NCBI GenBank assembly: GCA_947381415.1
Contig: CANCVB010000003.1
Span: 1-64,000, forward strand
Direction of reading: 5' to 3'
Length of the DNA stretch: 64,000 nt
Origin: Burkholderiales bacterium
Lineage (GTDB): Bacteria > Pseudomonadota > Gammaproteobacteria > Burkholderiales > Burkholderiaceae_C
Position numbers and translations under genes: made by a program. Shown here in pieces: positions 8,413-11,285 of the stretch. Position 1 is the first letter of the stretch, and every line of letters begins with the position of its first letter. Below the pieces are notes generated by a model, which saw nothing but the letters and a program-made list of their open reading frames with translations, did no database searches and had not been told where the DNA came from.

Positions 8413-9792
8413 TTAAGTCGTGGAATGCAAACGGATCGACCTTGCAAGCAGCAAAGGTCGCATGGCGACAAGGGTGATGAGCAACAGCACCACTTCAAGG
8501 CAATAGACGCTGGCATAAGCCGTTCCTGAATCTACCACCAAGGCCAGTAAGTCGCGAATGATACCGCCCAAGCCCATGGCCAAGCCTGCGCTGGTTGCCT
8601 GTACGGCCCCCCAGGCGCCCAAGGCAAGACCCGCTTGACCCACTGGCGCATGGTTCATGGTGGCGGTCAAGGTACCGTGCCCAAACAGTCCAGCCCCAAA
8701 ACCGATGAACAAGGTACCCGCGGCAAACAACAGCAAAGACGCTTGTGGCGCAGACAGCACAACAGCCATAAATGCGGGCACCCCTATCAAAGCACCCCCA
8801 CAAGCCATGCGAAAAGGGTCAGCGCCGCGGCTGAGCACATGTGAAGCCCAGGCAAAGCCAGTCAATCCGCCAAAAGCCAAAACCGCTGTCAACATGGTGG
8901 TGTCAGCCACGGCCAAGTGCAATATTTCCCCGCCAAAAGGCTCGAGCAAAACATCGCCCATGCTGAAGGCCATGGTGCCCACACCCACCACAAACAAACG
9001 CCGCAAAGCTTGATCGCCTTGGGCAAACAGCTTTAAGGCCGCGACGAAATCCACATCTTCTTCGTGGGGGTCTCCCAGGCGTTGGGTTCGTGCCTCTTGC
9101 TTCCATAAAGCGGTGACATTCAGCACCAAGGTCAACACGGCGGCGCCTTGCACAGAGCGAATCAGCGCGCCCGGCGAAAAATCTTTGAGCAACAGACCAA
9201 AGAGCAAGGCACTGACAATCATGCCCAGCAACAACATGAAATACATCAACCCCACCACTTTAGGACGTGACTCAGGGGGCGACAAATCGGTGGCCAGGGC
9301 CAATCCCACCGTTTGAGTGGTGTGCATGCCCGCACCAACCAGCAAAAATGCCATGCCTGCACCCAAATGACCAACCCAATCCGGGGCATGCGCGGCTTGG
9401 CCCATGCGGCCCAATACCAACAGGGCAAAGGGCATGATCGCGAAGCCGCCAAACTGCAACAAGGTCCCCAGCCAAATGTAGGGAACCCTGCGCCAACCCA
9501 AGGCCGAGCGGTGATGGTCCGAGCGGTACCCAATCAGCGCGCGAAAAGGCGCAAACAACAAGGGCAAGGCAATCATGGTCGCCACCAAGGCGGCAGGCAC
9601 CTTGAGCTCGACGATCATGACGCGGTTGAGCGTGCCAATCAGCATAGCCAAGGCCATGCCCACAGAAACTTGGAAAAGGGATAAACGTAATAACCGGCTT
9701 AAGGGCAGCGTATCGGTGGCTGCGTCGGCGAACGGAAGAAATTTAAGGCTGACTTGAAGCCATGTGCGCGAAAGTTTGGGGGAAGCATTCAT
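8413..9792 (-). CDS. pucC: PucC/LhaA family protein, light-harvesting complex assembly factor
   Basis: Inner-membrane protein of the BCH2 branch of the major facilitator family, needed for accumulation of light-harvesting complexes and probably for delivering bacteriochlorophyll to them. The 459 residues have about 12 hydrophobic segments. Typical family blocks are LSRLLRLSLFQVSVGMALAMLIGTLNRVMIVEL, too long to be chance and close to the known N-terminus, and ALIGYRSDHHRSALGWRRVPYIW. I start it at the ATG at 9792; a TTG at 9816 adds eight residues and lies in the loop of the hairpin that precedes the gene. It follows pucBA and precedes the 29-residue peptide. Confidence 0.92.
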   Translation of the reverse strand: MNASPKLSRTWLQVSLKFLPFADAATDTLPLSRLLRLSLFQVSVGMALAMLIGTLNRVMIVELKVPAALVATMIALPLLFAPFRALIGYRSDHHRSALGWRRVPYIWLGTLLQFGGFAIMPFALLVLGRMGQAAHAPDWVGHLGAGMAFLLVGAGMHTTQTVGLALATDLSPPESRPKVVGLMYFMLLLGMIVSALLFGLLLKDFSPGALIRSVQGAAVLTLVLNVTALWKQEARTQRLGDPHEEDVDFVAALKLFAQGDQALRRLFVVGVGTMAFSMGDVLLEPFGGEILHLAVADTTMLTAVLAFGGLTGFAWASHVLSRGADPFRMACGGALIGVPAFMAVVLSAPQASLLLFAAGTLFIGFGAGLFGHGTLTATMNHAPVGQAGLALGAWGAVQATSAGLAMGLGGIIRDLLALVVDSGTAYASVYCLEVVLLLITLVAMRPLLLARSIRLHSTT

Positions 9793-9830
9793 CTTAAAAA
9801 TGGACCGGAATGACAAGCAATCCGGCCCAT
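9789..9830 (-). other. Possible 13-codon leader reading frame coupled to pucC
   Basis: ATG at 9830 begins a 13-codon frame (MGRIACHSGPFLR) whose TGA overlaps the pucC ATG as ATGA. It runs through the whole pucA-pucC hairpin, so translating it would open the hairpin. Its ribosome binding site is weak. Offered as a hypothesis only. Confidence 0.2.
9797..9828 (-). terminator. Attenuator-like hairpin between pucA and pucC
   Basis: On the minus strand GGGCCGGA (9828-9821) pairs with TCCGGTCC (9809-9802), an 8-bp stem with one G-U pair and an 11-base loop, followed directly by A and five U residues. It looks like an intrinsic terminator placed just before the pucC start codon. In purple bacteria such intercistronic structures raise the ratio of antenna subunits to PucC. 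Confidence 0.65.
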
Positions 9831-9849
9831 CCTAAAAGAAATAGCCGAA

Positions 9850-10041
9850 CTAAGCCGTTGGCGTCGCAACGGTCTGTGTGACCGCAGCGGTAGCCGCATT
9901 GCCATTCAGAAATTTCTTGACCCAAGTGGTATTGAGGGTCAACGCCAAATGCACCGAGAACGATGCGATAGCGACTGCTGCGATGAAAATAGGAACGCCC
10001 ACTGAGGGCTTGACCACTGTCCAAAGTTTTCCGTAGATCAT
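9850..10041 (-). CDS. pucA: Light-harvesting 2 alpha subunit (LH2 alpha, PucA)
   Basis: Single-helix antenna polypeptide of 63 residues that binds bacteriochlorophyll and carotenoid in the LH2 ring. It aligns without gaps to known LH2 alpha chains: KLWTVVKPSVGVP at the N-terminus, the B850 ligand His31 in SVHLAL, then NTTW with Trp40. Met1, the B800 ligand in several LH2 structures, is followed by Ile. Positions 44 and 45, Tyr-Tyr or Tyr-Trp in ordinary B800-850 complexes, are Phe44 and Leu45 here, the pair found in B800-820 low-light complexes. The Ala/Thr-rich tail is typical. GGAG precedes the ATG. It lies 12 bases after pucB. Confidence 0.95.
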   Translation of the reverse strand: MIYGKLWTVVKPSVGVPIFIAAVAIASFSVHLALTLNTTWVKKFLNGNAATAAVTQTVATPTA

Positions 10042-10053
10042 GTGGTTCTCCTG

Positions 10054-10200
10054 TTATTTCAGCCAAGGGGAATAGATGTACGCAAGCAAATGCGCCAGCG
10101 CGGCAATCATTCCAAAGATTTGAGTTCCCTGGATGAGGTGCCGATGAATCTCTTCTGACTCGGCTTCTGTGAGGCCTGTTGGCCCTACTTTGTCTGACAT
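10054..10200 (-). CDS. pucB: Light-harvesting 2 beta subunit (LH2 beta, PucB)
   Basis: Partner of PucA in the LH2 ring, 48 residues. The N-terminus GPTGLTEAESEEIHRH matches LH2 beta chains closely, with Arg20 in the position that contacts the B800 pigment. The membrane helix ends in AHLLAYIYSPWLK, where His37 is the B850 bacteriochlorophyll ligand and SPWL the conserved C-terminus. AAGGAG lies 8 bases before the ATG. First gene of pucBAC. The ending is of LH2 rather than LH1 type. The reading frame is too short for many gene finders but the match is unmistakable. Confidence 0.95.
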   Translation of the reverse strand: MSDKVGPTGLTEAESEEIHRHLIQGTQIFGMIAALAHLLAYIYSPWLK

Positions 10201-10301: not shown

Positions 10302-10345
10302 TGTTATTCTAAGTTTACATCTTTCAATGTCAATGTTAATTTACA
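10302..10345 (-). promoter_or_regulatory. puc promoter embedded in two PpsR/CrtJ boxes
   Basis: Two TGT-N12-ACA palindromes occur at 10302-10319 and 10328-10345, separated by 8 bases, the spacing at which CrtJ is known to bind cooperatively. On the minus strand the upstream box contains a perfect -35 TTGACA (10333-10328), and the downstream box contains a -10 TAGAAT (10311-10306), spaced 16 bases. Transcription would start near 10299, giving a leader of about 99 nt before pucB with a small hairpin (CGTGC 10231-10235/GCACG 10243-10247). Binding here would block RNA polymerase directly, as expected for aerobic repression of antenna genes. Confidence 0.85.
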
Positions 10346-10412: not shown

Positions 10413-11285
10413 ATGTACCTAGGACGCTTTGCACCCTCGCCCACCGGCCCTTTGCATGCCGGCTCATTGGTCGCAGCACTGGCCAGCTGGCTGGATGCCC
10501 GCCATCACGGGGGGCAATGGCGGGTGCGCATGGAAGACGTTGACACGCCTCGCTGCGTGTCCGGTGCAAATGACATGATCTTGAAACAATTGGCTGAATG
10601 TGGCTTGCAGCCAGATGGCGCAGTGCTTTACCAGTCGCAACGGCAAGCGGCTTACCAAGCAGCCTTGGATCAATTGGTTGCCAAAGCTTGGGTTTACCCC
10701 TGTGGGTGCTCACGCAAGGACATTGAAGATGCGCAAGGTGCGCGCCAACGCCACACCAGCGCCCTTTACCCGGGCACCTGCCGCACAGGGCTGGCGGGCA
10801 AAGCTGCCCGCGCTTGGCGTTTGAATGTGCAACAGGTGGTGGAGGATTTGCAACTGCCATCGCCTTGGCTATGGCATGACCGTCTGTTAGGTGGCCAAGC
10901 ACAAGACATCCCCGAAGCCGTTGGCGACTTTGTGCTCAAACGGGCCGATGGTTTGTGGGCCTACCAACTGGCCGTGGTGGTCGATGATGGGTTTCAAGGC
11001 ATCACCCATGTGGTTCGCGGTGCAGATTTGGCCGACAACACCCCTCGCCAAATGCTGTTGCAGCACGCCCTGGGACTACCAACCCCTGCCTATATGCATA
11101 CCCCGCTGGTACTGGGCGCAGATGGCGACAAGCTGAGCAAGCAAAACGGCGCACAGCCGCTCCCCACGAAAGACCCGCTGACTGCTTTGAACGAGGCAGC
11201 CAAAGTGCTGGGCTTGCCTGCTTTTCAAGGGCCTTTCGAACGCGCATTGGCGCATTGGGCCGAGATGGGTTTGCGAGGCAGATAA
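10413..11285 (+). CDS. gluQ: Glutamyl-Q tRNA(Asp) synthetase
   Basis: Attaches glutamate to the queuosine base at position 34 of tRNA(Asp). The 290 residues resemble the catalytic half of glutamyl-tRNA synthetase without the anticodon-binding domain: [21 protein letters not shown] contains the HIGH-like element, RMEDVDTPR binds glutamate, the zinc site is [10 protein letters not shown] with a later PGTCR, and DKLSKQNGA is the KMSKS-like loop. Its start lies about 70 bases beyond the puc promoter boxes, divergent from them. queG, the last step of queuosine synthesis, is elsewhere in the window. Confidence 0.92.

Follow-up and report, generated by a model that had tools for sequence, protein, structure and literature searches.

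The LH2 alpha chain encoded in the 64,000-nucleotide stretch of Burkholderiales DNA analysed here (the window) carries Phe44 and Leu45, a pair that an earlier note on this DNA took as the mark of a low-light B800-820 antenna absorbing at 820-830 nm. The locus raises the question of where such an antenna would absorb, and of whether the pair is here an option for dim light or a permanent state. The reading that we favour, at a probability of about 0.85, is that this is the only LH2 found in the genome, that both of its acetyl groups are unbonded, that its band lies near 813 nm (range 803-826 nm), that its colour is set by the genome and that its excitation energy runs downhill to LH1.

The puc operon and its alpha chain

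The chain is encoded in a pucBAC operon at 8413-10200 on the minus strand, in the order pucB, pucA, pucC, with the following features.

8413..9792, minus strand: pucC, downstream of pucA, LH2 assembly protein of the major facilitator superfamily (PF03209, E 4.3e-149; start codon of our choice)
9850..10041, minus strand: pucA, LH2 alpha chain, 63 aa (PF00556 match, LH2 alphas in the PDB, codons)
10054..10200, minus strand: pucB, LH2 beta chain, 48 aa (PF00556, E 4.8e-9; best PDB match 7zdi_B, E 8.8e-19)
10413..11285, plus strand: gluQRS, divergent neighbour of the puc operon (NF004313, E 4.2e-133)

With gluQRS beside puc, the operon is placed outside the photosynthesis gene cluster. pucA starts at an ATG with AGGAG as its ribosome site, and pucB is preceded by an AAGGAG ribosome site. 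The alpha chain scores 28.8 bits against the Pfam LHC family PF00556 (E 1.5e-6; cut-off 23), has the ligand His31 and shares its operon with pucB and pucC, which together identify it as an LH2 alpha (PucA). phmmer places it on the solved LH2 alphas with zero offset (best match 7ze3_A, E 1.7e-15, residues 3-51 on residues 3-51), which fixes the residue numbering as Met1, Ser27, His31 (CAT), Trp40 (TGG), Val41 (GTC), Phe44 (TTT) and Leu45 (CTG). Two observations of the earlier note, that the chain aligns gap-free to LH2 alphas with His31 and Trp40 in place and that Phe44-Leu45 replaces the acetyl-bonding pair, are borne out by this alignment and by the codons.

The beta chain offers a side observation. 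The window's PucB has Gln (GTQIF) at the position where its PDB relatives have Arg (GTRIF), an Arg that we take to be the residue bonding the B800 acetyl. In a tally from which one unparsed row is left out, Gln pairs with MIY-type alphas in 161 of 161 rows (genome repeats counted and Tyr-Tyr alphas included), and Arg pairs with MNQ- or MTN-type alphas in 7 of 7. PucB of Limnohabitans planktonicus also has Gln, and this species is listed at 799 nm in a review (PMC12654162).

Acetyl bonding and the predicted band

That acetyl bonding tunes wavelength is already established. A single rule holds across nine LH2 structures: two bonds to the C3-acetyl groups give absorption at ~850 nm, one at ~825 nm and none at ~800 nm (PMC9618040). 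The window's alpha chain has no acetyl donor at positions 41, 44 or 45 (Val41, Phe44, Leu45). Phe44 and Leu45 without Tyr41 would leave both C3-acetyls of the B850-type bacteriochlorophylls unbonded, which would raise the site energies and move the Qy band to ~813 nm.

A measured relative anchors this value. A table in the review PMC12654162 lists peaks at 813 and 799 nm, and an LH1 at 865 nm, for L. planktonicus II-D5, whose alpha chain (L092) is 73% identical to that of the window over residues 1-60 and likewise has Phe44, Leu45, Val41 and Ser27. Its genome, like the window's, holds exactly four PF00556 chains, one pufBA and one pucBA pair, and since there is a single LH2 gene pair, the Phe-Leu chain should be the source of both listed peaks. 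A band blue-shifted from 850 nm, as the earlier note predicted, is thus well supported by residues 44 and 45 and by this relative.

How far the band moves bears on whether this could be a true low-light B800-820 antenna (LH3), as in Rhodoblastus, with a band near 820 nm and made mainly in dim light. Rhodoblastus acidophilus 7050 (PDB 1ijd) does have Phe44-Leu45 in its B800-820 complex (PMC9897067), and Rhodoferax antarcticus, an LH3-only species that, like the window's genome, has one puc operon and lacks acetyl donors at 44 and 45, peaks at 819 nm, although it has Phe44-Phe45 and keeps puc within the photosynthesis gene cluster (PMC5374385). However, the 7050 complex retains one acetyl bond, donated by alpha-Tyr41 (PMC9618040, PMC9897067), where the window's chain has Val41. 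The rule for unbonded acetyls and Val41 in place of Tyr41 together predict a band bluer than 820 nm, so that ~813 nm appears to fit better than the 820-830 nm of the earlier note. Furthermore, the 7050 complex is a low-light form that replaces B800-850, whereas the PF00556 search found one LH2 pair in the window's genome and no B800-850 pair with which it could alternate; each of eight named-record genomes searched in the same way (8/8) likewise has one LH2 and one LH1 pair. We therefore regard an LH3 of the Rhodoblastus type as unlikely. The comparison with Rhodoblastus was right as to the chemistry of the pair, which is here a standing state; the 'low-light' label is not supported, given that no Tyr44 partner gene was found in the genome and that Phe-Leu is nearly fixed in the genus. 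The Phe-Leu antenna thus looks, as far as sequence can tell, like a permanent form and not a low-light option.

The best PDB match is the PucD alpha of Rhodopseudomonas palustris PucD-LH2, or LH4 (PDB 7ze3), which also lacks acetyl donors and has Val41 with Phe44-Met45. PucD-LH2 has zero B850 hydrogen bonds and a single band at 803 nm (PMC9618040), and a complex of this kind would show hardly any separate B850 band, with all bacteriochlorophyll near 800-805 nm. Yet two peaks are listed for L. planktonicus, whose key residues match those of the window (PMC12654162), and the window's alpha has Ser27 where the aligned PucD residue is Val27; PucD-LH2 also differs in belonging to a multigene set and in having a gamma subunit in the complex (PMC9618040). 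An LH4-like spectrum is accordingly rather improbable. In passing, section 7 of PMC9618040 names the PucD alpha residues Met-44/Phe-45, while 7ze3_A aligns as Phe44-Met45; the wording looks like a slip.

Ser27 also bears on the red end of the predicted range. The alpha-Ser27 of Rba. sphaeroides forms a bond to a keto group, and a sphaeroides mutant without donors at 44 and 45 that kept this bond absorbs at 826 nm (PMC9618040); with Ser27 present in the window's chain, a position redder than 813 nm is possible. An ordinary 850 nm antenna would need acetyl bonds from other residues. The window's beta chain does have Trp at His+9, and the beta Trp of Phs. molischianum is the beta-B850 donor (Table 1 of PMC9618040), so that by analogy this residue could in principle serve. 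PucD-LH2, however, shares the beta ending (YSPWL) and has no such bond, and the peak listed for L. planktonicus, which has a like beta ending and shares the alpha key residues, is at 813 nm (PMC12654162). An 850 nm band is thus very improbable, and an acetyl-unbonded complex near 813 nm is the reading carried forward here.

Gene copies and the spread of Phe44-Leu45

The genome is 99.9% complete with 1.7% contamination, in 40 contigs. PF00556 finds four chains above cut-off, two LH1 chains on contig C5 and the two LH2 chains of the window, and two further matches below cut-off on C1 (E 0.08 and 0.5). No second LH2 alpha and no Tyr44 pucA was found with PF00556 in the whole genome, although with 40 contigs another copy may have been missed. 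With no second pucA found, the colour of the antenna would be set by the genome, without light-dependent switching. A single-protein scan of viral contigs, sensitive to close relatives only, found no relative of the window's alpha. The LH1 chains have Trp at alpha His+11 and at beta His+9, which we take to be the LH1 acetyl donors; because LH1 retains its own tryptophans, LH2 would feed an ordinary LH1 at ~865 nm down a steep energetic funnel.

C5 also holds the photosynthesis gene cluster, with puhA, two nitrogenase-like subunits that we interpret as bch genes, genes interpreted as pufL, pufM and a crtB/crtI/crtC group (names without a family match being our reading; a Pfam search with the crtC-like protein gave no match), and a PpsR-CrtJ regulator above its family cut-off. 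The window's gene order is shared by a locus from a record titled Limnohabitans sp. (L046) and by several titled Comamonadaceae, and we infer a Limnohabitans-like organism, probably an aerobic freshwater phototroph living in lakes. Like Limnohabitans B800-813, it has an alpha with Phe44, Leu45 and Val41 as its only LH2 alpha found; unlike it, its puc genes do not lie between crtC and crtB (puc is on C3, the cluster on C5). Limnohabitans B800-813 and the LH3-only Rhodoferax antarcticus are kinds already known, of which the window's antenna is a further example. No paper stating the Phe44-Leu45 pair for Limnohabitans was found in the literature searched, though Kasalicky 2018, the study that measured L. 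planktonicus, may state it.

Within the genus of the window, a match is present in 50 of 84 genomes, and 49 full alphas could be read from 48 genomes (G401 and G411, with partial or broken matches only, are left out of the count). Phe-Leu is found in 46 of these 49 and Tyr-Leu in three. Leu45 is present in all 49 and written with all six leucine codons, and Phe44 with both of its codons, on which grounds the pair in the window is, judged by its relatives, neither chance nor a sequencing slip. None of the 48 genomes has both Phe-Leu and Tyr-Leu among its full copies; G407 has two Phe-Leu copies, and G472 and G473 each have one together with a contig-end fragment that stops before residue 44. 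A sign of selection is the median dN/dS of 0.08 among 217 of the 300 genus pairs sampled, at a median dS of 1.4, which is near saturation.

Wider samples are more mixed. In the family, 23 of 399 genomes match, with 9 Tyr-Tyr, 8 Phe-Leu, 2 Phe-Phe, 2 Tyr-Trp, 1 Phe-Val and 1 Tyr-Leu alphas. In the order, 30 of 399 genomes match and 28 of 31 alphas are readable (L176, L180 and L181 are left out), comprising 23 Phe-Leu, 2 Tyr-His, 1 Tyr-Tyr, 1 Phe-Met and 1 Phe-Tyr. All three samples contain the window's genome, and those of family and order share G091; although their queries also lean towards Phe-Leu, they are less biased than the set of named loci, which was chosen for similarity to the query (the best 80 of 467) and in which 79 of 80 are Phe-Leu. 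A quick tree of 135 rows, built with residues 44 and 45 excluded and with 34 of 132 inner branches weak, requires at least 13 changes of state at 44/45 and at least nine between Tyr44 and Phe44, the direction of which it does not give. The rows come from 181 loci after removal of three without a readable alpha, 13 with a PucC shorter than 300 aa (one locus falling in both groups) and duplicates; L088, on a very long branch and perhaps with a damaged pucC, was kept. Some close relatives stand one base apart at codon 44 (TTC/TAC).

Several variants merit record. Three genus loci (L144, L183, L189) and L065 have Tyr44-Leu45 among Phe-Leu relatives and are thus natural single-donor variants; codon 44 is TAC in the three genus loci versus TTC or TTT in their Phe-Leu relatives. 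L171 and L172, from small genomes of ~2.0 Mb, have Tyr44-His45, and His45 would be unusual as an acetyl donor. One clade (L012, L016, L017, L019) contains both Phe-Phe and Tyr-Tyr alphas with betas that are identical or one residue apart, a double change among close relatives. Three MAG records titled Rickettsia typhi (L030), Bordetella parapertussis (L034) and Akkermansia muciniphila (L086) carry freshwater-type puc operons, and their titles look wrong.

What the near-fixation means is a more speculative matter. Absorption by water is weaker around 810 nm than around 840-850 nm, and antenna colour would follow this difference if planktonic freshwater Burkholderiales had as their standard antenna an LH2 near 813 nm, fixed and acetyl-unbonded, kept by selection for lake light and not a low-light specialty. 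We advance this only tentatively and consider it doubtful; Tyr44 has a slight majority in the family sample (12 of 23 alphas). If true, the repeated Tyr44/Phe44 changes would be colour shifts between habitats. Genome size was tried as a proxy for planktonic life and dropped: Tyr44 genomes are larger (medians 3.8 versus 3.2 Mb, 17 versus 55 genomes; Mann-Whitney p 0.054), but comparisons of independent pairs on the tree give no sign of a difference (8 pairs, median p 1). Short of any such account, the textbook low-light pair is in one freshwater lineage a near-fixed and apparently single-copy state, so that why these bacteria abandoned 850 nm becomes a question testable on close relatives one base apart at codon 44, and antenna colour may be predictable from sequence for unmeasured phototrophs when anchored on a relative with both a genome and a spectrum.

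Operon position and upstream sites

Among the 80 named loci (the best 80 of 467), puc lies beside gluQRS or the LysR gene, as in the window, in 18 and beside crtC in the photosynthesis cluster in 26, with neither seen in 36. gluQRS adjoins puc in 13 of the 48 genus loci outside the window, where the visible flank is only ~1.5-2 kb. The puc genes of L. planktonicus lie in the cluster beside crtC, between crtC and crtB, whereas those of the window lie beside gluQRS. The crtB- and crtC-like genes of the window's genome stand 24 kb apart on C5 (69.7-95.6 kb), the cluster being split there, and L. planktonicus carries puc in the interval that corresponds to this gap. In three genomes with the window's gluQRS site (G421, G381, G471) the two genes are 11-17 kb apart, and in G402 they are 2.8 kb apart with puc in between; the spacing is 0.5 kb in G438 and 46 bp in G456, with puc elsewhere in both, and G450 and G472, with the two genes on separate contigs, are uninformative on spacing. 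Since both the crtB-crtC spacing and the position of puc vary among these genomes, puc has, by comparison of gene orders, changed place within the genus.

Two palindromes of a motif that we take to be of the PpsR/CrtJ type lie in the 212-base intergenic stretch upstream of pucB.

10302..10319, no strand assigned: TGT-N12-ACA palindrome upstream of pucB (motif scan)
10328..10345, no strand assigned: second TGT-N12-ACA palindrome upstream of pucB, 26 bp from the first (motif scan)

The motif is not enriched across the window (21 found versus 20.8 expected), and this is the only pair at such spacing in it; under a Markov model the chance of two sites in the stretch is 0.0034 and of the 26-bp pair 0.0001. 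L. planktonicus has no TGT-N12-ACA within 300 bp of pucB, where the window has two. Among the 69 named loci (drawn from the best 80 of 467) that have sufficient upstream DNA, 13 of 13 gluQRS-type, 5 of 26 crtC-type and 30 of 30 other loci have a site between -90 and -160; for the 26-bp pair the counts are 7 of 13, 2 of 26 and 18 of 30, respectively. Of the motif matches, none but the close pair before pucB, together with its recurrence among relatives, is informative. Together with the regulator gene on C5, the motif suggests that puc expression is probably under PpsR control.
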